Below are positions 2,749-25,799 of a stretch of 25,799 bases of DNA, piece after piece. Position numbers and translations under genes: made by a program. The stretch is from a virus: positions 1 through 25,799 of the IMG/VR virus record IMGVR_UViG_3300044625_001412. The stretch is one strand, 5' to 3'. Numbering within the stretch: position 1 is the first letter of the stretch; every line of letters begins with the position of its first letter. The notes beneath the pieces were generated by a model. That model was not told the origin of the DNA. It made no database searches and saw only the letters and a list, made by a program, of their open reading frames with translations.

Positions 2749-3384
2749 TTACCGCTTGTTGAGGCGGCTGTTGATTGCCTTCTTGAACTCCTCGGGCTTG
2801 CCAGCGAACTCGCGGACAAGATCTCCGACCTGACGGGCGTCAATGTCGGCCGAGGGGAGGGCCGAACGGCCCATGTCAATGCGAACACCCATGGGGTCGC
2901 GGCTGAACAACTCGCGCCACGACTCAAGCAGCGCCGAGGCGTCCGAGGATGCCGAGAGTTCCGCGATCAGGCGCGGACGGTGCGCCGCCGGGATGCGGTA
3001 GCCGTCTGCCTCCATCGCGTCTAGTTCGCGGCCGAAGCGCTCGCGGCTGATCTCAGCCTTGAGTGCCTTGATCTCACGCTGCATCTTGGCGTTCTCGCGA
3101 CGCATAGCGAAGACATCGGCGCGACCGGGGCGGGATGCCGGGAACATCATGGCCTCTGCCTCCTCCTCTTCCTCCTCCTCGCCGTGGGAGTCGATGTCGA
3201 TGTGGACGCCGTCGCCCGCACCCTGCTCCTCGGCGAACTGCTCAGCGAGCATGTCCTCCGCGGCCATCTCCTCCTTCTTCTCCTTCTTCTCTTCCTCGCC
3301 CTCCCCGAAGTGCTTCTTCATCATGGACTTCATCTCGTCCATTTCGCACTTCAGGGCGGCGATCTCCTTGCTGTAGTCCGCCAT
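2749..3384 (-). CDS. Nested scaffold protein from an internal start in the protease gene
   Basis: Within the protease/scaffold frame, an ATG at 3384 (residue 187, MADYSKEIAALK) is preceded by CGAAGGAA seven bases upstream. That is a better ribosome site than the one at the long form's 3942 start. It would give a 211-residue product made only of the coiled-coil, acidic and C-terminal helical parts, that is, a free scaffold. Lambda C/Nu3 and Mu I/Z use exactly this in-frame nested arrangement. The ribosome site is seen; use of the start is inferred. Confidence 0.5.
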   Translation of the reverse strand: MADYSKEIAALKCEMDEMKSMMKKHFGEGEEEKKEKKEEMAAEDMLAEQFAEEQGAGDGVHIDIDSHGEEEEEEEAEAMMFPASRPGRADVFAMRRENAKMQREIKALKAEISRERFGRELDAMEADGYRIPAAHRPRLIAELSASSDASALLESWRELFSRDPMGVRIDMGRSALPSADIDARQVGDLVREFAGKPEEFKKAINSRLNKR

Positions 3385-3942
3385 GTTGGTTTCCTTCGTG
3401 GTGGGGACATACGTGGATTGCCCGCCGCCGACTGTCCCCATGTCGAAGCGGATTGGTCTTGCGAAAGTGACGAGTTCGCCGTTTCGCGTGAAGTGCGTGT
3501 CGGGCAACGGACGGCGCGGGGTTTCACGGCCGAGCAGCGCAACCTCAGACAGGTGGTTCTGGTCAGCCCAGATCTCGGCGCTGCGGCGCGGGAACGCATT
3601 GGTCGCCAGCAACTTGTCGAACACCGGCTTCTCAACCTCGCAGTCACCGATGATGTATGCGACGCCGTTTCGCTCTTCGTAGCCGATACGCGTGAAGCGA
3701 CCGACAGAGGACTTCGGCTCGCTGCCGTCCTTGTCGTGCATCACAACGAGCCTCGGATACGAACCACGCGTCATGTATTTCGCGGTCGCGTTCACGATTT
3801 CCATGACGCGCTCATTGTCGAACTTCTTGAGTTCCGGGTCGCTATCGCCGTCGATGGACGGGTCATAGGCGCAGAACACCTCAAGACCATGAATCGTGAC
3901 CGTCTTGCCGTTCTCGGAGATTTGATGCGAGGTCGACATCAT
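2749..3942 (-). CDS. Prohead protease fused to scaffold
   Basis: This 397-residue protein (from the ATG at 3942) probably cleaves scaffold and capsid arms during prohead maturation. Residues 60-160 carry a protease-type pattern common in phage head peptidases: SVGRFTRIGYE, then AFPRRSAEIW and LSEVALLGRETPRRPLPD. Residues 187-300 are a charged coiled coil with Glu/Lys runs (EEEKKEKKEE, HGEEEEEEEAEA) typical of scaffolds. A linker RPGRA occurs at 271, and the C-terminal 300-397 helices may bind capsid. Catalytic residues cannot be assigned by eye. The start is ambiguous: ATG-ATG at 3942/3939 abuts the upstream stop (TAATG) but lacks a Shine-Dalgarno, whereas GTG at 3981 has AAGGTGA upstream. 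An internal start at 3384 is listed separately. Confidence 0.72.
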   Translation of the reverse strand: MMSTSHQISENGKTVTIHGLEVFCAYDPSIDGDSDPELKKFDNERVMEIVNATAKYMTRGSYPRLVVMHDKDGSEPKSSVGRFTRIGYEERNGVAYIIGDCEVEKPVFDKLLATNAFPRRSAEIWADQNHLSEVALLGRETPRRPLPDTHFTRNGELVTFARPIRFDMGTVGGGQSTYVPTTKETNMADYSKEIAALKCEMDEMKSMMKKHFGEGEEEKKEKKEEMAAEDMLAEQFAEEQGAGDGVHIDIDSHGEEEEEEEAEAMMFPASRPGRADVFAMRRENAKMQREIKALKAEISRERFGRELDAMEADGYRIPAAHRPRLIAELSASSDASALLESWRELFSRDPMGVRIDMGRSALPSADIDARQVGDLVREFAGKPEEFKKAINSRLNKR

Positions 3943-4367
3943 TATTCTGGAGGCGCGACTTGATTCACGAAATCGTTCCACATGCTCACCTTTGCGACCC
4001 AGATTATCTCGCCAGCCGATCCGCCCTCAAGAGCAGTAAAGAATACGAACGTTGGGTTCAGAGTGGTCGAAGCGACTTGGCCGCGCCCGTCACCCGTCAA
4101 TCCAACGCCGGCTCCCGGCGCTACTGAGCCAGCAAGTTCCAACTGCAACCACTGCCCATTCTGAAGCGAAACGACTTCGCCATCCGTTGCGTGCATCGTT
4201 GCAGCGAAGTTAGAAACGCTGCCGTCCGTTACTCCGATGTGGTAGGTGAAGGCGTCATACAACCTGACTCGCCATTGCTTCCCGCCCCCCGGCACCTTGC
4301 TGACAGCGCGGAACGGAGGGATATTTCCCTCTGCCACAAGGTTCACGGTGTTGTTCATCGTGCTCAT
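3942..4367 (-). CDS. Decoration-type capsid protein, paralogue 2 of 5
   Basis: This 141-residue protein has the same three blocks as the other family members: HIGVTDGSV, GEVVSLQNGQWLQLELAGS, and FFTALEGGSAGEIIWVAKV. The N-terminal LVAEGNIPPFRAVSK aligns with paralogue 1. It lies between the minor head gene and the protease gene; its TAA overlaps the protease ATG. The start is ATG at 4367, with a second Met at residue 4; neither has a good Shine-Dalgarno. Probably a beta-rich virion surface protein. It has no recognisable catalytic motif. Confidence 0.62.
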   Translation of the reverse strand: MSTMNNTVNLVAEGNIPPFRAVSKVPGGGKQWRVRLYDAFTYHIGVTDGSVSNFAATMHATDGEVVSLQNGQWLQLELAGSVAPGAGVGLTGDGRGQVASTTLNPTFVFFTALEGGSAGEIIWVAKVSMWNDFVNQVAPPE

Positions 4368-7448: not shown

Positions 7449-7940
7449 TCAGTGAGGAACGATTGCCGGAGGAAGTACTGAATACGGCCATCCATAAACA
7501 CGAGCAGCCCAAACGATCTGACCTGCCGCCGTGCTGTTCTCCATGGCAACGAAATGAACTATCTGCGCGGTCAACTGAAACTCCGGCTGCGGGATGTTTC
7601 CGACCCGCCCATCGGCTCGTGATTGCAGATAAGCACCAGCGGTAAATGCTTCCGCGGATTCTACTTGACAGTAATCCGACGCCTGAAGCGTGACCTGACC
7701 GTCATACTCGGCGTGAAGTTGCTTACCCTCGGCATACACCGAGCCATCCGTGACGCCGACGATTGGGCTGGCTATCTCTTTCTCATATGGACCGGTCGCG
7801 GTTCCAACCAGCGGATAGTCAAGCGCGAATGCAGTCTTGTCCGAGATGTTCGCTGCCCGATACACGCTGACGCAGCGAAACGGGAACAGATCATCCTCGC
7901 CACGCCACACCAACGGGACTGTGATTCGATTATGACTCAT
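7449..7940 (-). CDS. Decoration-type capsid protein, paralogue 4 of 5
   Basis: This 163-residue protein (from MSHNRITVP at 7940) contains IVGVTDGSVY, GQVTLQASDYCQVESAE and FVAMENSTAAGQIVWAARV, the shared family blocks, with a longer insertion after the N-terminal strand than paralogues 1-3. The chosen ATG overlaps the end of the upstream paralogue by 11 bases. A longer in-frame reading upstream would run deeply into that gene and starts with low-quality, unrelated sequence, so it was not used. Confidence 0.6.
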   Translation of the reverse strand: MSHNRITVPLVWRGEDDLFPFRCVSVYRAANISDKTAFALDYPLVGTATGPYEKEIASPIVGVTDGSVYAEGKQLHAEYDGQVTLQASDYCQVESAEAFTAGAYLQSRADGRVGNIPQPEFQLTAQIVHFVAMENSTAAGQIVWAARVYGWPYSVLPPAIVPH

Positions 7941-8490
7941 AACGAGCGAAGTATGATCGGAGGATGATGGCGGAAATAATGTCGCCGGACTGACCCGGCT
8001 CAAGTGCCTGCACCGCAGCATCTAGAAGCGTAAATCCCGTTGCGACGTTTCCCTCGAACGGAACTACCCACCCAAGGTTCTGGTCGTAAACCGTGTTGAG
8101 GAAATCGCCGCACTTGACGTTATAGGTGTTTATTGCTTCCCCGGCAATCGTCTGCCATCCGATCTGAACCTGCACGATTGGGCCGTTCTGTACAGGAATC
8201 AACTGTCCCGGCATGCACGCGGTTGGGCTCTGCTTCAAGTCTCCACTGGTTGTGTGACTATACGGCGGCACCGTTTGCCCCAGCCAGACGCCATCGCTTG
8301 ATGCCGCCGAGCCATCTACAAAGAGCACCCTCGGCACGGCAAACGATTGAAGGAGTTGCCCCAAGAAACTGGGCTGCGCCGCTCCAAGATTGTTTCGGAT
8401 TGAGATCGGGCTGTATACCGGAATCTGGCTAGATGCAACTAGCGGGACGCCTCCCGATTCGCCGCTGAAGAATGACGAGTGAACGCTCAC
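7930..8490 (-). CDS. Divergent decoration-type capsid protein, paralogue 5 of 5
   Basis: This 186-residue protein starts at a GTG (8490) just after the 567-residue gene. It is the most divergent family member. In place of GVTDGSV it has LFVDGSAAS, but the second block (GQLIPVQNGPIVQVQIG) matches GEVVSLQNGQWLQLELAG of paralogue 2 well. The C-terminal ALEPGQSGDIISAII matches the ALE...GEIIW block. N-terminal 50 residues (SSFFSGESGG, SPISIRNNLGAAQ) are unique and could be a capsid-binding or fibre-like extension. Confidence in homology is moderate. Confidence 0.52.
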   Translation of the reverse strand: MSVHSSFFSGESGGVPLVASSQIPVYSPISIRNNLGAAQPSFLGQLLQSFAVPRVLFVDGSAASSDGVWLGQTVPPYSHTTSGDLKQSPTACMPGQLIPVQNGPIVQVQIGWQTIAGEAINTYNVKCGDFLNTVYDQNLGWVVPFEGNVATGFTLLDAAVQALEPGQSGDIISAIILRSYFARYES

Positions 8491-8492
8491 GG

Positions 8493-10196
8493 TTAGATCT
8501 CGCCTCGGCGCTTGAGGTCCAGCGCGATCGCGACTGCCTGCTTCTGCGGCTTGCCCTCGTGAATGAGCGTGCGGATCTTGTCGGCCACTGCTGCGTCCTT
8601 CGCGGCGATCATCTTGAGGCCAGAGCGCACGTCTTCCGACTCCTCTGGCTGAGCGGCCTCGGACTTCGGCACGCAGTCGGGGACGGTCTTGCCGTCCTTC
8701 TGCTTCGTGCCGACCGCCTCGTAGCCCTGCCAGCAGGCGTCGGACAGCGCGTTCGTGGACTTCGCGCCGGGGCGGGAGGCGCGAAGCGTCATGGGCTTGC
8801 TGATCCGAATGCCTTTGCGTTCCGCCAACGCGATCAACTTCTTGTACAGAAGCCAATCGCGATCGTTCGCGGTCATCTCGTCCCGGTATCGCGTCATCGC
8901 CTTGGTCGCCTCGTCAACGAATGAACCCGCCGACGGTTCATCGTTCTTGACGACGGACATCGCATCCAAGAGTACATCGCTCAAGGTGAACTTCGCCTTC
9001 GCGCCGGGGCGATTGTTCCAAGCCTGCGGATACTTTTTCATGTCTCTGGCGTCGGCTACGCAAATCTCGGCGATGCTCTTCGCTTGAAAGACAAGTCCCT
9101 TCGCGCCATCGAGAATCGCATCTGCTTCTGCACGCCTGTACGCGGCTTTGAGCTCTTGGAGTTCATCCATCAGAGCCCTTTCTTCCATCTTGAAATCCGA
9201 AGGCACAGACGCAAACTTCACCTTCGCGCCGGGGCGGGAGGACTTGAACGCCGCATCTACGGCCCTGTCGCCAAACTCAGCGCGAACGATGTCCGAGATC
9301 AGCGATCCCTTGTCCCATTCGCTGATCTTCTGCTCTCCGATTGAGACTCGACCGCGCTGTATCTTTGACTTCCACAGGTCGAAGACTTTTGCCTTCGGCT
9401 GCGACTTGAGTTCGTTGTAACGATCAATGATCTTCTGCGAGTTGTCCATCGCCGCCTTCGCGCCGGGGCGGGCGTGATAGGAACCTCCCGAATAATCGTC
9501 GGCCACCGAGACATTGACCATTGGCGAGATCTTGTTCTTCCTCAGCACCTCACGGATCGCGGCGACGTCGGACTTGTCGTAAACGATGATCCCCTTCGCG
9601 TCGGTGTCGACAGCGAAGTCATACATCAGTTCAAGGATTTTCTTCCGCTGCGGGTGACCAGCGAGTCTCGCGGCAAACTCGGTTCTCTTTCCGGGGCGGG
9701 AGGCGCGGCTTCGCAGCGCGAGAATCTCGTGCCCTGTCTCTTCGGCAAGTTCCAGCAGATCGTCGTCTCCGACGCGCTTCGCGTGCGCGATCGCCTCATC
9801 CACGATCTTCTCCATGGCTTTGTGATTTGAAATCGTGACCGGCTTCATGAGTTTCGCAGCCAGTTGATCTGAGCGTTCCATTCGTGCATTCTCCTGCTTG
9901 TCCTTGAGTTGCTCAAACTTTCGGGCCGCCCACGACTTTCCGGAATCGCCTCCCCAAAGGAGCCAAGCGATGTATCCTGCATCGTCCTCGCCGCCCGACT
10001 TGTTCTTCTCGTGACGATTGAAGAACGCATGCATCCGCCGAACCGTCTCTGGGGACAGGTGCTTGCGGTTGCTGATGTCCCTCGCTCGCGCCACACCGAT
10101 GGCCGTTCCGCCCTTCCCGTGCTTCTTTCGGAGTTCAAGGCCACGCCTCGCGTTTGAGGCCATCTCCTCAGTCGGTTGAAGGTCGATCTCGGCCAT
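8493..10196 (-). CDS. Modular structural-region protein punctuated by RPG(A)K linkers
   Basis: This 567-residue protein lies between the large terminase gene and the decoration/portal genes. Residues 12-92 form a conserved phage domain (RRGLELRKKHGKGGTAIG, then LSPETVRRMHAFFNRH and AWLLWGGDSGKSW), often found fused to prohead or portal-region proteins. RPG(A)K motifs occur at residues 167, 243, 321, 396 and 475, spaced 75-79 residues apart and separating segments of dissimilar sequence. The C-terminus has SDACWQGYEAVGTKQKDGK and PDCVP, then EGKPQKQAVAIALDLKRRG, both recurrent small phage modules. The DNA at each linker carries CCGGGGCGG. Start ATG at 10196 has GTAGGA upstream. Function unknown; likely virion-associated or a maturation cofactor. 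Confidence 0.62.
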   Translation of the reverse strand: MAEIDLQPTEEMASNARRGLELRKKHGKGGTAIGVARARDISNRKHLSPETVRRMHAFFNRHEKNKSGGEDDAGYIAWLLWGGDSGKSWAARKFEQLKDKQENARMERSDQLAAKLMKPVTISNHKAMEKIVDEAIAHAKRVGDDDLLELAEETGHEILALRSRASRPGKRTEFAARLAGHPQRKKILELMYDFAVDTDAKGIIVYDKSDVAAIREVLRKNKISPMVNVSVADDYSGGSYHARPGAKAAMDNSQKIIDRYNELKSQPKAKVFDLWKSKIQRGRVSIGEQKISEWDKGSLISDIVRAEFGDRAVDAAFKSSRPGAKVKFASVPSDFKMEERALMDELQELKAAYRRAEADAILDGAKGLVFQAKSIAEICVADARDMKKYPQAWNNRPGAKAKFTLSDVLLDAMSVVKNDEPSAGSFVDEATKAMTRYRDEMTANDRDWLLYKKLIALAERKGIRISKPMTLRASRPGAKSTNALSDACWQGYEAVGTKQKDGKTVPDCVPKSEAAQPEESEDVRSGLKMIAAKDAAVADKIRTLIHEGKPQKQAVAIALDLKRRGEI

Positions 10197-10205
10197 GCGA
10201 TGATC

Positions 10206-11663
10206 CTACCCTGCTGGGAACATCGGTCTACGGGGCATGTTGCTCCCGAACATACGGGTGATCGCGTCCGGTTTCTGTATGGGCTTGACAGCCAGATCGC
10301 TCTTGGAGAGCGAGCCGCGAACGGCTTCGGCGCACAGGTCGACGATGACGTCTACGGTGTCATCGTGGCTCCCTGCGGGAAACGCGAGCATCTCATCGAT
10401 TACAGGCTGAAACGCTGGGAGGACGCGGCCAGCTTCGTCGGTCGGGAATCGGAGTTTCCCTCCTTGGACGAATGGCTGCGCACCCGCCGCACGAAGGTGC
10501 TTGTCTCTGTTGCGCTCGACGGCGAGCATCGGCTGCGTTGTCATCTCCCGGAACTGGTCGAAGATGCCTTTCTGTGGGCCGTTGGCCTCCGCGAGTACGA
10601 CCGAGACGCCTCGCCTTGACAGCAGATCCGCCGCCATCCGCGCAAACGTGGGGAACGATTCGCGGACACGGATGATGTCCGTGACATAGCAATCACGCTT
10701 CCCATCCACCTCCGCCACGATGCAGACGGAGTAGTCAGGATCATCTCGTTCCTGCTCCCGCTTGCCGTATCCCCAATCCAGCGCGGCGATGGTTCTCGTC
10801 ACCTTCGGCCGATCTCCTTGCCGGTAGTGCCCAATCCAGCCCGGCTGGAAGATCAGCAGGTCGCTTGAAAGCGGGATCAGTTCGTAGGCGCGGGCATAAG
10901 CCATCGCGCCCATCTCTTCGCGCTTCTTTCGCAGGTATTCCTCCGTGAACACCTCAGGCCACGGACTGATGTCCCCGCGACAGGGCAGGCGCAGCAGCGT
11001 GCTGTCCTGCTCGTGGTATCGACGCCAATCCGCGGTCACGTCATCGGTGTGGAACGGCGTTGCCGTCTTCCAAACGCGGCTGTCAAACTCCGCGGCGGGA
11101 TCAAGCATCGGCATCCAGATGTTTGCCACCGCCTCCTTCACTTGATCGCGGAGCGTTGGCTGCAGGACGGCGTTCCGCAGGTCGCAGATGTCATCGAACC
11201 AAAGGACGTCCGCACGGCCACCCGTCCGGCCGAACACGCCGGAGCCCTGAACGGAAGGGTCGCGCCGTGATGGCAAACCCGGCGCTGTCACGCTCCATGA
11301 TGTCACGGCTTCTTCGCCAGCCTTGATCTTGACACCGGGGAACACGGCTCGGAACGCGTCGGATCGGATGATCTCGCGGATGAACTTCGTCGTTTGCCCT
11401 GCGGCCTCGTCGTTCTGGCTGACGATCTTGAACCGGGTTCCGGGCCTGACTCCCAGCCACCACGCTGTCATGAACGCCATCGTCGTCGTCTTGGCGTGTC
11501 CACGAGGGATCTCGGCGTACCAAGAGAACGCTGTCAATGCCTGATGGATGAGTTCGCGTTGGATGTCGCTGACTGGCTTGTTCATCGCCAGAGCGATGAA
11601 GCCGAGCGGATTCTCGCGTGCGTCTGCGACCGTCTGTTGTGGCAGAAGAGTCTGTCTCGTCAC
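10206..11663 (-). CDS. terL: Terminase large subunit (packaging ATPase-nuclease)
   Basis: This 485-residue protein packages DNA into proheads. Seen directly: a Walker A-like PRGHAKTT at 53-60, Walker B DVLWFDD at 152-158, a coupling-motif candidate KTATPFH near 199, and a C-terminal RNase H-like nuclease with ALDWGYGKRE and a final HDDTVDVIVD supplying acidic residues. Length is normal. It begins with GTG at 11663, overlapping the stop of the preceding gene as GTGA. Its position next to a small helical protein fits the usual terS-terL order. The packaging strategy (cos or pac) cannot be told from this sequence alone. Confidence 0.93.
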   Translation of the reverse strand: MTRQTLLPQQTVADARENPLGFIALAMNKPVSDIQRELIHQALTAFSWYAEIPRGHAKTTTMAFMTAWWLGVRPGTRFKIVSQNDEAAGQTTKFIREIIRSDAFRAVFPGVKIKAGEEAVTSWSVTAPGLPSRRDPSVQGSGVFGRTGGRADVLWFDDICDLRNAVLQPTLRDQVKEAVANIWMPMLDPAAEFDSRVWKTATPFHTDDVTADWRRYHEQDSTLLRLPCRGDISPWPEVFTEEYLRKKREEMGAMAYARAYELIPLSSDLLIFQPGWIGHYRQGDRPKVTRTIAALDWGYGKREQERDDPDYSVCIVAEVDGKRDCYVTDIIRVRESFPTFARMAADLLSRRGVSVVLAEANGPQKGIFDQFREMTTQPMLAVERNRDKHLRAAGAQPFVQGGKLRFPTDEAGRVLPAFQPVIDEMLAFPAGSHDDTVDVIVDLCAEAVRGSLSKSDLAVKPIQKPDAITRMFGSNMPRRPMFPAG

Positions 11664-12133
11664 GACTTGGGCTTGATTGACGCTGCGACTGCCTTCATCT
11701 GTTCATCGGTGATGCTGGCAATGAGGGCGACGTTCTCGGTGCTTTGTCCTTCGTGGAGGCGCTCAAGCCTGTACGCCTCGATCACCAGATCGGCGTTGTT
11801 TCGGTCGAGCATCGCAAGCGTCTGGACAGCGCGAATCTTGTCGCGGATGTCCGTCGCGGGATCTGCCAGTATCCGACCCACGATGCGCGGGGCGGCGATG
11901 TAGGCCTCGGACGGGATGTCCCATCGCATCTTGACAGCGCGACGGATGAGCGACATTGTCTCGGCTGCGCCGTGCGCCTCCAGAGGGCCGGAGACGAGCG
12001 GAGTTGGCTCCGGGGCGGACGCTGCCCCTTTCCCCTCGGCTTCCTTCGCTTCGCGTGCGAGGGTGGTGTTGGGGACGGGGCGAGGCCGATTGGCTTTGGG
12101 CTTCGGCTCGCTGCGCGGGTTGTTGCGGCTCAT
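11660..12133 (-). CDS. Candidate terminase small subunit
   Basis: This 157-residue protein begins at ATG 12133 behind a very good GAGGAGGGT. The N-terminal 50 residues are basic and proline-rich (SEPKPKANRPRPVPN), likely disordered. The C-terminal part is helical (MSLIRRAVKMRWDIPSEAYI, then DKIRAVQTLAMLDRNNADL). Small terminases bind the packaging site and stimulate TerL; gene position immediately upstream of terL with a GTGA overlap, its size, and its helical C-terminus support this. No family motif was recognised, so the role comes mainly from context. Confidence 0.55.
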   Translation of the reverse strand: MSRNNPRSEPKPKANRPRPVPNTTLAREAKEAEGKGAASAPEPTPLVSGPLEAHGAAETMSLIRRAVKMRWDIPSEAYIAAPRIVGRILADPATDIRDKIRAVQTLAMLDRNNADLVIEAYRLERLHEGQSTENVALIASITDEQMKAVAASIKPKS

Positions 12134-15398: not shown

Positions 15399-15426
15399 TT
15401 TACCCTAGCCGAAAGTAGGGTATCTT
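15399..15426 (+). promoter_or_regulatory. Promoter A
   Basis: TTTACC, 16 bases, TATCTT. ACCCT and AGGGT form an inverted repeat with a ten-base gap between and within the core elements, as in promoters B and D. A 45-base upstream block starting GAGTGACTGCTCGGG (15337) is recognisably related to that of B and C. It would drive the unit 15498-17059. Confidence 0.65.
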
Positions 15427-17113: not shown

Positions 17114-17254
17114 CACGGGCGGGGCGCAGGACGCCCGCTGCGGGGCCGGGGCCGCGCCGGGGGCGGGCGGGGGCCGGGGCCGGGGCGGGCCGTGCAGGGG
17201 CCGTGCAGGGGCCGCAAACGGGCCGCGCCCGGGGGCGGGCGAAAGATTCTTGAC
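17114..17254. repeat. GC-rich spacer with 11-base tandem repeat, similar to 23675-23771
   Basis: An almost G/C-only stretch. GGGCCGTGCAG is repeated in tandem at 17187-17197 and 17198-17208, then GGGGCCG, AAACGGGCCG and a GCGGGCGAAAGATT end. The region at 23700-23771 has the same order (GCAGGGGCCGT, CAACGGGCCG, GGGGCGACCGCAAGATT), showing that B and C are homologous over about 300 bases including this spacer. Confidence 0.6.
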
Positions 17255-17316
17255 GAGTGATTCCTCGGGACTTCCAGAAATCTGAGGGAAACTTGACGGA
17301 AACCCGCTCCCTTGGG

Positions 17317-17345
17317 TTGCACCCTGCCCCGCCGTAGGGTATCAT
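17317..17345 (+). promoter_or_regulatory. Promoter B
   Basis: TTGCAC, 17 bases, TATCAT, with ACCCT-N10-AGGGT inverted repeat. Upstream, 17255-17292 matches 23772-23809 with one mismatch over 38 bases. It would drive the unit starting at 17414. Confidence 0.72.
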
Positions 17346-17353
17346 TCGGGGGT

Positions 17354-17413
17354 CGGGCAAGTCGCCCGCGCCGTGCCGCCCGGTTGGCGGCTGTCACGAA
17401 CAGGAGAACGGTC
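17354..17413 (+). promoter_or_regulatory. Leader B: two hairpins, TGTCACGAA box and ribosome site
   Basis: CGGGC-AAGTC-GCCCG (17354-17368) and GCCGCC-CGGTT-GGCGGC (17375-17391) are the counterparts of the leader A stems, followed by TGTCACGAA and CAGGAGAACGG before ATG 17414. Loop bases differ from A while stems are kept. ACAGGAG resembles the GGA motif bound by CsrA, whose homologue may be encoded downstream in the same unit. Confidence 0.62.
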
Positions 17414-18508
17414 ATGACGACCTACGCTTGCGTTCCTGCTCCCGATCACTTCACCGGGATTGCCAACGGCCTCACCTTCAACACGGATCGACCGGAGAGC
17501 CGCAGCGCGGCACTCTGCATCTTTGAGAACCTCAACACGCTGCTGTTCGGCAGTCGTGGTGGGGCCTCCATCTCCGAAGCGTTCAGGATGACTTGGGAGC
17601 ACGGTGGTCGCTCCGGCTACGTCAACTTCGCGCAGATGGTGCGCGGGCAGTCCTACGTGGATGCGCTGCGCTCCGAGACGGATGCAAATGCGCTGCGCGA
17701 CCTGACGCTGTCGATCATCCGCGATTACGTCACGACCAACATCGCCCCGATCTCGTTTGACGAATCCGGTCAGAACGAGATCGACAGGAACGTTCTCCGC
17801 TTCGTGCGGCATCTCTTCCACCTTCGTCAGTGGCGTCAGCAGCACGGCGAGTCGACGCTGAAACTGAACCAGTCCGTCAGCGTCTACCTCCACACCAGCG
17901 CGGCGGATGCCCGGTTCGTCAACCATCCCGATCAGTTCGCGCCGATGTCCTGCCGAATGACCGACAATCGCTACGAACAGCCGATGGTGTTTCGCGTCGC
18001 GATGAATCAGGGTCATGCCGTCGTCCGCGTGAATCGGCACGGGTTCTTCCAGATCGACAGCGGTGATGCCCCGATCCGCCACCTGCGTACCGTGAACGTG
18101 GCCGACGACAGCATCGAACGCCGCCTCCTCATCACGCTCATGCAGAATCCTCAGGCCGTCACGGGCCGCGCAATCGCGGCGTTCTGCCAAGCGCACAACG
18201 GTCGTTCGTGGTTCGGCGGCATGATGACCACCCCGGCCACGCGCCGCGCCGGGATGTCCGTCCGCGTGTTCCGTGGCCTCTACCGTGGGCTTGGCAACGA
18301 GACGCTCGCGTCGTTCGCCCGTCAGTTCCCGCGCCCCGATCGCGGCTGGCGCGAGAGCGACCGCGCTGCCCTTGGCGCGGCCTACCCCGCCACGGCGCGG
18401 GTGATCCGCCGCCGCGCCCGCCTGTGGAACTGGAACGCCATCCCCACCGACGTTGCCGCGATCATGGCGCGTGACCTCGAACTGCACCTCGACGACCCCA
18501 CGGAGTGA
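17414..18508 (+). CDS. Hypothetical protein, 364 residues, first gene of unit B
   Basis: This protein is not recognised. It starts at ATG 17414 (MTTYACVPAP) with CAGGAGAA upstream and the conserved leader before it. The first 200 residues are mixed (RSAALCIFENLNTLLFGSRG, then SEAFRMTWEHGGRSGYVNFA). The C-terminal 150 residues contain Arg-rich helices (RRAGMSVRVFRGLYRGLGNE, then ARVIRRRARLWNW) that could bind nucleic acid. No signal peptide or transmembrane helix is seen. Its placement directly behind the strongest copy of the control module suggests high early expression and a host-takeover or DNA-associated role. A long reading on the opposite strand is a codon shadow. Confidence 0.65.
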   Translation: MTTYACVPAPDHFTGIANGLTFNTDRPESRSAALCIFENLNTLLFGSRGGASISEAFRMTWEHGGRSGYVNFAQMVRGQSYVDALRSETDANALRDLTLSIIRDYVTTNIAPISFDESGQNEIDRNVLRFVRHLFHLRQWRQQHGESTLKLNQSVSVYLHTSAADARFVNHPDQFAPMSCRMTDNRYEQPMVFRVAMNQGHAVVRVNRHGFFQIDSGDAPIRHLRTVNVADDSIERRLLITLMQNPQAVTGRAIAAFCQAHNGRSWFGGMMTTPATRRAGMSVRVFRGLYRGLGNETLASFARQFPRPDRGWRESDRAALGAAYPATARVIRRRARLWNWNAIPTDVAAIMARDLELHLDDPTE

Positions 18509-20000: not shown

Positions 20001-20299
20001 CTGACAAAGACTTCGTGGACATCGTGACTCTGTTGCGCTCACCGGATCGCTTTGAGCCGTATACCTGCAACGCCGCCGCCGACGAGATCGAGCGGCTGCG
20101 CGAAGAACTAACCGCATCGCATGAATCGCACGGGAACGAGGTTGGTGCGCTTACGGAACGGCTGTCACTTGCGATCCATGAGCGCGACGAGGCGAGGCGG
20201 ATGTATTGCTACGCAATCCCGGAGAATTGCGATGAACACGAAGCAAGAAAGATTGCGTGGGAGCGCGGCTGGGACTGCTTCAAGGAGGACGGCAAGTGA
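19997..20299 (+). CDS. Small coiled-coil protein, cassette copy 1, gene b
   Basis: This 100-residue protein starts at GTG 19997. It contains NAAADEIERLREELTASHES, a helix of a type found in many phage early proteins, then AIHERDEARRMYC, a Cys-containing segment and KIAWERGWDCFKEDGK at the end. The 85-residue product at 20463 shares AADAIERLTAERDEARRLYC and the C-terminal ALKRGWVDLFPEGHGK, so the two are paralogues differing by an internal deletion of about 20 residues. Confidence 0.6.
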   Translation: MTDKDFVDIVTLLRSPDRFEPYTCNAAADEIERLREELTASHESHGNEVGALTERLSLAIHERDEARRMYCYAIPENCDEHEARKIAWERGWDCFKEDGK

Positions 20300-23674: not shown

Positions 23675-23771
23675 TTCCCCGCCCCGCCGGGGCGGGCGGG
23701 CGGGGGCCGCGCAGGGGCCGTCCACGGCCCGGCAACGGGCCGTTCGGCGGGGCGACCGCAAGATTTCTGCA
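23675..23771. repeat. GC-rich spacer homologous to 17114-17254
   Basis: Nearly pure G/C, then GCAGGGGCCGT, GCAACGGGCCG and GGCGACCGCAAGATT in the same order as the spacer before module B. It lacks the clean 11-base tandem repeat of that copy. Together with module C it forms a diverged repeat of about 300 bases. Confidence 0.58.
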
Positions 23772-23833
23772 GAGTGATTCCTCGGGACTTCCAGAAATCT
23801 GAAGGAAACCGTCAAGAAACGCTCCCCTAATGG

Positions 23834-23862
23834 TTGCCGCCTACCCCGCCGTAGGGTATCAT
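23834..23862 (+). promoter_or_regulatory. Promoter C
   Basis: TTGCCG, 17 bases, TATCAT. CCCCGCCGTAGGGTATCATTC is shared almost exactly with promoter B, though the left half of the ACCCT repeat is altered to CGCCT. The 38-base block at 23772-23809 matches module B. It drives the amidoligase/GATase unit. Confidence 0.7.
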
Positions 23863-23870
23863 TCACGCGT

Positions 23871-23926
23871 CGGGCATGTCGCCCGGCCCGTCCCCCCGGT
23901 TCGGGGTGTCACGAAAGGAACAAGTC
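23871..23926 (+). promoter_or_regulatory. Leader C: two hairpins, TGTCACGAA box and ribosome site
   Basis: CGGGC-ATGTC-GCCCG (23871-23885) is identical to leader A. The second stem reads CCCC...GGGG (about 23892-23906) instead of CCGCC...GGCGG: one base pair is exchanged on both sides (G:C to C:G), consistent with selection for pairing. TGTCACGAAAGGAACAAG follows, before ATG 23927. Confidence 0.62.
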
Positions 23927-24868
23927 ATGCCGACCGCCGCTCCCCGCATCACCGCTCGCGACCTCACCTACGGCATCGAGATCGAGTGCGGCATCAACCA
24001 CGATGCGCCCGTCCGCCCCGGCTCGTATCACGCGGGCAACACGGTGACCGCGCTGCCCGCCTCCACGGTTGACGGCGTCACGCGCAACTGGCGGGCCGAC
24101 CGCGACGGCTCGCTGCACTTCCGCAACGCGATGGCGGTCGAGTTCGTCAGCCCGATCCTCAAGGGAGCGGACGGCCTCGACAACATCCGCGCCGCCTGTG
24201 CCCAGATCAAGGCATGGGGCGGCAAGACGAATCGCTCGTGCGGCCTGCACGTCCACGTCGCCTTCCCGACCGAGGACGTTGCCGCGATGCGCCGCCTCAC
24301 CAAGTTGGTCGGTCGCTTCGAGGACGCCCTGTACGCCGCGTCCGGCACTCCCGACCGCCGCAATGGCGGCTACTGCCGCCCGATCAAGACCGAGCGCAAC
24401 AAGTCGTTCGCGTGGAACGTCGCTGACAAGCGTGCGCTCGGTGGCTACTCGCAGCCGCACGACCTCAACGACCGCTACCGCATCCTCAACTGGACTAACT
24501 TCATCTCCGGTCGCTTCAACGCTGTCGAGTTTCGCGTGTTCTCCGGCTCGCTCAACCCGGCCAAGATCGCCGCTTGGGTTCAGATCTGCCTCACGCTCGT
24601 CGAGATGGCTCTCGACAACTGCGATGCCGATTGGGACATCCGCTCTTCCGACCTCGGCAAGTACGGTCGCTCGGTCGGCGAGCAGCAGGTCGGTTACATG
24701 TGCCGCTACTGCTGGTTCTGGCGCCGCCGCCGCGACCGCAACTACGGCGACGTCGGTCACTCCGTGTTCACCCGCGAGTCCTCGCTCGCGACCATGAAGG
24801 CTCTCGCCGTGCGTCACGACGAGCGCGCAGGGGTGCGGCAGGTCGCCGCCCCCGGCGCGAACGCCTGA
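23927..24868 (+). CDS. Amidoligase-family enzyme (COOH-NH2 ligase, glutamine-synthetase fold)
   Basis: This 313-residue protein likely joins a carboxylate to an amine using ATP. It has the blocks of the 'putative amidoligase' family: YGIEIECGIN at 15-24, RADRDGSLHF at 57-66, VEFVSPILKG at 71-80, CGLHVHVAFP at 105-114, and RYRILNWTN with AVEFRVFSGSLNPAKIAAW near 184-217. The acidic and His residues of the GIEIE, EFVSP and HVH motifs would bind metal and ATP. Start ATG 23927 has AAAGGAAC. It is followed by a class II glutamine amidotransferase with the same ribosome-site sequence, suggesting a two-enzyme system. The substrate (peptide, cell-wall or small molecule) is unknown. A long reading on the opposite strand is a codon shadow. 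Confidence 0.85.
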   Translation: MPTAAPRITARDLTYGIEIECGINHDAPVRPGSYHAGNTVTALPASTVDGVTRNWRADRDGSLHFRNAMAVEFVSPILKGADGLDNIRAACAQIKAWGGKTNRSCGLHVHVAFPTEDVAAMRRLTKLVGRFEDALYAASGTPDRRNGGYCRPIKTERNKSFAWNVADKRALGGYSQPHDLNDRYRILNWTNFISGRFNAVEFRVFSGSLNPAKIAAWVQICLTLVEMALDNCDADWDIRSSDLGKYGRSVGEQQVGYMCRYCWFWRRRRDRNYGDVGHSVFTRESSLATMKALAVRHDERAGVRQVAAPGANA

Positions 24869-24901
24869 TCCTCCATCCGCCCATACGAAAGGAACAAGAC
24901 C

Positions 24902-25633
24902 ATGTGCGGACTCTTCGGTATGTACGCCAACTCGCCGCTGTCGATGGCGGCTCTCCCCACCCTCATTCGTGTCGCCAACTCGCAGGTTCACCGTGGTCAC
25001 CACGCGTTCGGCCTCGCTTGGGTCAACGAGGACCGTCAGGTGTTCGCGTTCAAGCGACCCGGCGCTGTCACCGATCACCCCGAGGACGTCGCTCGCGGCG
25101 AGGGTGCGCTGGGCCTCATCGGCCACACGCGGTGGGCGACCCACGGCTCGTACGACGACAACGCCAACAACCACCCGCACCCCTTCTCTTACAAGGATCG
25201 CACGTGCTACCTCGCGCACAACGGCGTGATCTGCAACTACGAGCAGATCGCCGCCGAGCGCGGCCTCACGATGCGGACGCAGTGCGACTCCGAGGTTCTC
25301 GCCCGGCACATCGAGGACGGCTCAGGCCACATCCTCGACCGCGTGGTGGCTGCGATCGCCGATGTCTCCTCCTACGCACCGTGCTGCGTGACGGTCGTGA
25401 CCCACAAGGGAATCGTCCTCGCCCGGCGCGGCAATCCGCTGTTCTGGTCTGACACGGGCAACCTCGCTTGGTTCGCTTCCACCCGCGCCGCTCTCCCGGG
25501 TCGTGTGTACGAGGTTCCTGACAACCGCGCCTTCTTCATCCCGAGCGGCCCCGGCGGAGTGCGCGAAGCCAAGTTGCGGCGCCGCGAAGCGACGACGATG
25601 CGCTTCGTGGGCTCTGACCTGTTCACCGAGTAA
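24902..25633 (+). CDS. Class II glutamine amidotransferase (N-terminal nucleophile)
   Basis: This 243-residue protein should hydrolyse glutamine to deliver ammonia. After Met removal Cys2 (MCGLFGMY) is the nucleophile. VHRGHHAFGLAW at 29-40, GHTRWATHG at 74-82, HPHPF at 91, HNGVICNY at 106-113 and CDSEVL at 128-133 match the glutaminase domain of GFAT/PurF-type enzymes. It is stand-alone, with no sugar isomerase or PRTase domain. It follows the amidoligase by 33 bases with the same ACGAAAGGAACAAG ribosome site, so the pair is probably co-expressed and functionally linked: ammonia donor plus ligase, or making an amidated metabolite or protein tag. Confidence 0.87.
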   Translation: MCGLFGMYANSPLSMAALPTLIRVANSQVHRGHHAFGLAWVNEDRQVFAFKRPGAVTDHPEDVARGEGALGLIGHTRWATHGSYDDNANNHPHPFSYKDRTCYLAHNGVICNYEQIAAERGLTMRTQCDSEVLARHIEDGSGHILDRVVAAIADVSSYAPCCVTVVTHKGIVLARRGNPLFWSDTGNLAWFASTRAALPGRVYEVPDNRAFFIPSGPGGVREAKLRRREATTMRFVGSDLFTE

Positions 25634-25653
25634 CGTTCATCGACTCTTGTTCC

Positions 25654-25696
25654 CCGTCGCCCGTCCCCGCCATGCTGGCGTCAGGACGGGCGACGG
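25654..25696 (+). terminator. Strong hairpin (13-bp perfect arms) after the GATase gene
   Basis: CCGTCGCCCGTCC (25654-25666) and GGACGGGCGACGG (25684-25696) pair perfectly; the 17-base loop contains a further GCCA-TGC-TGGC stem. It lies 20 bases after the last stop. There is no U-tract, but the stability and position favour a terminator or 3' end protector. Confidence 0.65.
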
Positions 25697-25707
25697 CACA
25701 TAAAGAA

Positions 25708-25740
25708 CGCACCCCCGGACGAGAAGTCAACGGGGGTGCG
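25708..25740 (+). terminator. Second tandem hairpin, 10-bp arms
   Basis: CGCACCCCCG (25708-25717) and CGGGGGTGCG (25731-25740) pair perfectly across a 13-base loop, eleven bases after the previous hairpin. The tandem pair isolates unit C from what follows. Confidence 0.6.
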
Positions 25741-25799
25741 CTATCCGGGGGCTAGTCGTGACGCGGCGCATCGTAGCCGGGGCGGGCGGGGCCGGGGCG
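25741..25799. other. GC-rich sequence at the right edge, perhaps another module spacer
   Basis: After the hairpins, GCCGGGGCGGGCGGGGCCGGGGCG begins near 25775, in a style like the spacers before modules B and C. No gene is seen. A fifth promoter-leader module may lie just past the edge. Confidence 0.35.

Follow-up and report, generated by a model that had tools for sequence, protein, structure and literature searches.

An amidoligase and a class II glutamine amidotransferase paired in a phage operon: a candidate glutamine-dependent amide ligase

What might a phage gain from encoding a carboxylate-amine ligase next to a glutaminase? The question is raised by IMG/VR virus record IMGVR_UViG_3300044625_001412, of which we analyzed a stretch of 25,799 nucleotides (positions 1 to 25,799, hereafter the window). 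Close to its end, an Amidoligase_2 gene is followed by a gene for a class II glutamine amidotransferase (GATase). A first-pass annotation made from the sequence alone had described the two as a self-contained unit that could modify the host envelope or a phage protein, or assist DNA hypermodification. We examined the genes, their control elements and their relatives in other phages, and weighed the activities that the pair might have.

Two predicted enzymes in a compact operon

Profile searches placed both genes where they had first been annotated (Table 1). The product of the first gene matches PF12224 (E 2e-22, 80.6 bits against a curated cut-off of 22) and phrog_2443 (E 1e-31). Its conserved residues are E18, E20, D60, S62, E72, H108, H110, R183, N188, E201 and R203, of which all but S62 are invariant or nearly so in an alignment of 26 related amidoligases; the predicted metal and nucleotide ligands are all retained. 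The structure model of the protein (pLDDT 92.5, pTM 0.92) resembles glutamine synthetase, YbdK and GmaS (gamma-glutamyl-methylamide synthetase) in a fold search (E 5e-5 to 2.5e-4). This likeness is one of predicted fold, with acidic metal ligands and His/Arg residues conserved in the window ligase, but sequence identity to these enzymes is only 11-14% and the TM-scores are low (~0.4). A sequence search of the PDB did not find a solved relative of the amidoligase family. In Pfam, the partner of PF12224 is described as a glutamine amidotransferase-like or Aig2-like protein.

The second gene product matches GATase_6 (E 1e-14) and phrog_14519 (E 2e-20). As in class II enzymes, a cysteine immediately follows the start methionine, and the residues of the glutamine pocket and oxyanion site are present (R77, N107-G108 and D129). 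Conserved positions comprise C2, R31, H75, R77, T80, H91, N107, G108 and D129, with M1, C2, R77, N107-G108 and D129 invariant among the 25 partner GATases aligned. Loss of Cys2 or of the ligase metal ligands in relatives had been named as evidence against the proposed unit; Cys2 is retained throughout the 25 GATases, and the metal ligands are invariant or nearly so across the 26 amidoligases. A structure search related the domain to the glutaminase domain of GlmS (1xff, E 4e-14) and to PurF. The phage protein has in common with the GlmS and PurF glutaminase domains and with EgtC the fold, the N-terminal Ntn-type cysteine and the glutamine-pocket residues. Complete GlmS and PurF, however, carry a C-terminal synthase domain, whereas the phage ORF stops after the glutaminase domain, at 243 aa, with no synthase domain. 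It also missed the NCBIfam cut-offs for full-length glmS (86 against 418 bits) and for EgtC (TIGR03442; 17.1 against 218.65 bits). Having no synthase domain of its own, the GATase would need a partner.

The two genes lie in the same frame, 33 nt apart, and are preceded by identical ribosome-site sequences of 14 nt, as the first-pass annotation had stated. It had also given them a control module of their own. The module is real, but it is not private: the promoter-like box also occurs in the window at 15415, 17334 and 21757, as well as in related phages, and we therefore rejected a promoter dedicated to the pair. Since the promoter-leader module is repeated before other rightward operons, the pair appears to be placed under the phage's own shared system. 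Matches to the box GTAGGGTATCATT number four in the window against 0.1 expected, every copy being upstream of rightward genes. Similar boxes are found upstream of the pair in the related loci L003, L014, L025 and L026, and in the related contig L012 a variant CCTAC-N6-GTAGG dyad, accompanied by a TATCAT-like hexamer, stands before four operons. The leader hairpin, taken alone, gave a folding signal no better than shuffled sequences. More broadly, a module made of CCTAC-N6-GTAGGGTATCATT and a GTCGGGC..GCCCGGC hairpin stands before rightward operons at 15415, 17334, 21757 and 23851 of the window and recurs, altered, in related phages, marking a candidate regulon.

Downstream of the pair, tandem terminators had been proposed. 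Two strong hairpins are indeed present, and the region at 25634-25775 folds far better than shuffles (z -5.4), but no U-tract follows either hairpin, which is why the terminator scan lists neither, and canonical intrinsic terminators were rejected at this site. The apex of the first hairpin recurs after the L003 GATase on a different stem, with no further copy in the stretches searched, and this hairpin appears to move together with the cassette. The contig ends 166 bases downstream of the operon, at the point where a 38-kb sibling contig also breaks off. The pair does stand alone as far as this point, as had been claimed, but the start of a GC-rich repeat copy there suggests that a further operon lies beyond the contig end. 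The operon region gave no Rfam match.

Table 1. Positions of the two genes and of the neighboring control elements in the window
Feature	Position	Strand	Match or remark
Amidoligase_2, GS-fold carboxylate-amine ligase, 313 aa (gene 1)	23927..24868	+	PF12224, phrog_2443
Stand-alone class II GATase (Ntn glutaminase domain), 243 aa (gene 2)	24902..25633	+	GATase_6, phrog_14519
Ribosome-site sequence ACGAAAGGAACAAG, gene 1	23911..23924	+	read from sequence
Ribosome-site sequence ACGAAAGGAACAAG, gene 2	24885..24898	+	read from sequence
Upstream control region (GC-rich repeat, promoter, leader)	23686..23935	+	78% identical to 17167-17422
Promoter-like box: -35-like TTGCCG, dyad CCTAC-N6-GTAGG, -10-like TATCAT	23834..23863	+	
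Leader hairpin GTCGGGCATGTCGCCCGGC	23866..23891	+	common to other operons of the window phage and relatives
Strong hairpin 1, 3' of operon; apex CCGCCATGCTGGCGTCA	25654..25696	+	
Strong hairpin 2, 3' of operon	25708..25740	+	
Start of another GC-rich repeat copy at contig end	25776..25798	+	repeat family D6

Linkage and genomic position across phages

We searched IMG/VR with GATase peptides only and obtained 39 loci, in which an amidoligase partner was scored by profile search when it lay on the same strand within 800 nt upstream. Such a partner was present in 36 of the 38 testable loci, the contig of L051 beginning at the GATase, and absent in L053 and L007. Consistent separation of the genes in other genomes, which the first-pass annotation had held to be decisive against it, is thus not observed. 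Clustering at 90% GATase identity yielded 27 clusters, 25 of them with the pair, and left L007 unclustered. The best 80 GTDB matches listed were considered as chromosomal relatives of the phage GATase, but they fit ordinary GlmS by length (most ORFs ~600 aa, against 243 aa) and identity and were used only as a control; the same amidoligase profile found no match near any of these 80 GlmS-like loci. The distance matrices of amidoligase and GATase correlate (Mantel r 0.90), and common phage ancestry contributes in part to this correlation and to the co-inheritance of the pair.

In one locus, L073, both activities are encoded by a single ORF of 722 aa (9911-12076), in which hydrophobic stretches precede each domain and the GATase cysteine is internal (VN-CGIG). 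Since an internal cysteine would require processing, we treat the fusion as supporting evidence only; a search for a second single-ORF fusion found none. A read-through model of the two domains (TGA as Trp, 11 codons between the genes) reached a pTM of 0.60, with the domains placed confidently individually but not relative to each other. Searching with the amidoligase only returned 21 further amidoligase loci, 16 of which have no GATase, so that ammonia from a GATase is unnecessary for the amidoligase fold. Altogether, the retained active sites, the L073 fusion and the different position in related phages support, from comparative genomics, the idea of a self-contained two-enzyme phage unit kept together in ~25 lineages.

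The unit also appears to be movable. In four related phages (L012, L014, L026 and L247, with only the amidoligase up to the contig edge counted in L014) the operon adjoins the HTH/ParB side and precedes whichever of RusA, Erf and Gp157 are present, whereas in the window it comes after Gp157. It is found in only 3 of 26 Erf-related loci and, together with the different position in the four relatives, this points to a movable accessory unit. Many high-GC phages (L027 to L048) have it between leftward genes, for example terminase and ParB/methylase genes, a placement that, judged by gene order, is the layout of an accessory 'moron'. A terminase search for the host found no close cultured relative, the best match being ~25% identical.

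Other features of the window were recorded along the way. Compared with the sibling contig L002, otherwise nearly identical, ~850 bases are apparently missing at a 30-nt direct repeat (20180-20209), owing to a deletion or an assembly collapse. In a structural-region protein (8493-10196, minus strand; L003:1079-2698, minus strand) an SRPGAKAKF-like peptide is repeated many times at scattered positions and may serve in processing or as a linker; a related ASRPGR stretch occurs in the ORF at 2749-3981. Several short structural-region ORFs on the minus strand (3942-4367, 7449-8021 and 2332-2733) have an I(V)GVTDGSV motif in common and apparently form a multiplied small protein family.

Relation to published modules

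The pairing of amidoligase and GATase is already in print and so is not new. A seven-gene peptidoglycan-modification cassette of predicted function, with amidoligases, GATase, ATP-grasp and GGCT, was described in RIO-1-like podoviruses and reported to be conserved in phiEco32, LUZ24, PaP3 and others (PMC5498523). Its members, after Hardies et al. 2013 and Iyer et al., are phiRIO-1, PSA-HP1, phiEco32, LUZ24, PaP3 and tf (PMC5498523), and superinfection exclusion has been proposed as its role (PMC5498523, PMC11945000). In PSA-HP1, the predicted peptidoglycan-modification genes include an amidoligase-GATase pair (PMC5498523) and are transcribed immediately on infection (PMC7082346). The first-pass annotation, which called the phage substrates largely unknown, left out these predictions of peptidoglycan modification and superinfection exclusion (PMC5498523, PMC10580990, PMC11945000).

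In this module, a class II GATase comes directly or almost directly after Amidoligase_2, and both are among the early genes (e.g., LUZ24 gp18-gp19); the window genes are likewise adjacent. The module also contains GGCT and a RimK-type ATP-grasp, whereas the window unit consists of two genes alone: profile searches of the window, its sibling and its relatives, all fragmentary records, detected neither of these two families. A search of the same sequences for the second COOH-NH2 ligase, PF14395, run without a positive control, gave no match either. With neither GGCT nor ATP-grasp, the window unit represents a compact form of the published module. Its GATase also differs from that of LUZ24 in length (243 against 510 aa). 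Arthrobacter phages of the Waltz/Laroye and Ottawa types show the window's arrangement, a GATase directly after the amidoligase on one strand, with amidoligases ~27-30% identical to that of the window; Waltz, unlike the window, has an annotated GGCT just upstream. By published description only, the pair can also be likened to the amidoligase and GATase reported in the OM43 phages MEP401 and MEP402 (PMC10580990) and in the Planctomycetes phage ZRK32, which differs by having glutathione synthase and GGCT in addition (PMC10945688).

Candidate activities of the pair

We give about even chances to the proposal that this accessory operon encodes a two-subunit, glutamine-dependent, ATP-driven amide ligase, a reading that builds on intact active sites, tight linkage, co-inheritance, a common promoter and a movable position. 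The class II GATase would split glutamine through its N-terminal cysteine, the ammonia released would, we infer, pass to the amidoligase, and this GS-fold enzyme would activate a carboxylate with ATP and convert it to an amide. Sharing its promoter-leader module with the rightward operons, the unit is probably part of the early (rightward) gene set, and early use is in keeping with the immediate transcription of the PSA-HP1 genes (PMC7082346). More tentatively, and with more doubt than confidence, we propose that the likeliest target is a carboxylate on some peptide of the host envelope, for example the peptidoglycan stem peptide, in which case the likely use would be to change the cell wall so as to thwart rival phages or lytic enzymes. 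Weighing against the amide-ligase reading are the low inter-domain confidence of the read-through model, which establishes no interface, the many amidoligases of the family that lack a GATase, the failure to detect GGCT and RimK-type ATP-grasp in the window phage, and the contribution of common phage ancestry to co-inheritance.

The main rival to a glutamine-dependent amide ligase, which we consider unlikely, is that the ligase joins the gamma-carboxyl of glutamate to an amine, and that the GATase, acting as a gamma-glutamyl amidohydrolase, takes the group off again, as GGCT would do elsewhere. Ligases of the GshA/YbdK/GmaS type join glutamate to an amine in this way, and EgtC removes a gamma-glutamyl group in ergothioneine synthesis; the predicted ligase fold, as modeled, is consistent with the former, and PDB searches with the GATase do recover EgtC structures (sequence E 2e-6, Foldseek E 5e-11), although the GATase is clearly nearer to GlmS and PurF. 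Further support comes from the distribution of GGCT (PF06094): one record among the 26 of the amidoligase-GATase set has it, against 13 of the 15 amidoligase records without GATase (nine above the curated cut-off), as though the partners were interchangeable. This contrast (Fisher p 8e-8, ignoring relatedness and fragment length) suggests that GATase and GGCT are alternative partners able to replace each other, and the swap is a new lead, but full modules have both (LUZ24, Lyrsu01, Waltz, L050, L075 and L080), which speaks against removal of glutamate by the GATase. The exchange fits either a gamma-glutamyl eraser or two chemistries around one ligase. We hold it to be distinctly unlikely that Amidoligase_2 writes a gamma-glutamyl mark which GATase and GGCT can erase interchangeably, so that tagging would be reversible and the eraser swapped between lineages.

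A further proposal, raised for a precursor in the first-pass annotation, has the pair contribute a precursor or a reaction step to DNA hypermodification alongside TET and glycosyltransferase genes. We regard this as highly improbable: a general joint function was tested both ways and found unsupported, TET being present in 4 of 30 and TAGT in 2 of 30 records of the GATase/amidoligase set (missing in 26 and 28), and pair genes at only 4 of 79 TET loci, those of the window's kin and of one other lineage. Within the window, 10 kb separate the pair from the TET/glycosyltransferase genes, which belong to another operon on the opposite strand. Nevertheless, genes of this type lie near some copies, and a link restricted to some lineages may exist: TET lies close to the pair in L003 and L014, both kin of the window phage, and two genes upstream in L055, TAGT is near it in L026 and L054, and an ABC-ATPase/GNAT fusion is near it in two distantly related phages, L029 (7356-8585, minus strand) and L058 (3759-4889, plus strand). 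In L058 the fusion occupies the slot held by the glycosyltransferase or TET in its kin L054 and L055, a variable modification-gene slot. At L053 (3314-5863), TET is upstream of a related GATase, the amidoligase is absent from the 5.5 kb upstream, and the contig ends inside the GATase.

Most improbable, in our view, is an auxiliary metabolic unit that aids nitrogen assimilation by host or phage, as proposed for ZRK32. This phage reportedly stimulates growth on nitrate or ammonium, a claim that appears to rest on growth effects rather than on gene tests (PMC10945688). The two enzymes are not known to catalyze any step of bulk nitrogen assimilation, and a glutaminase would free ammonia from glutamine.

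The pair represents a two-gene unit that is widespread in phages; guesses at its target go back to 2009, with no decisive test found in the literature. The window, with a ligase and a glutaminase only, offers the simplest form in which to test the chemistry, and the swap with GGCT poses a direct biochemical question: is the GATase an ammonia donor or a gamma-glutamyl eraser?
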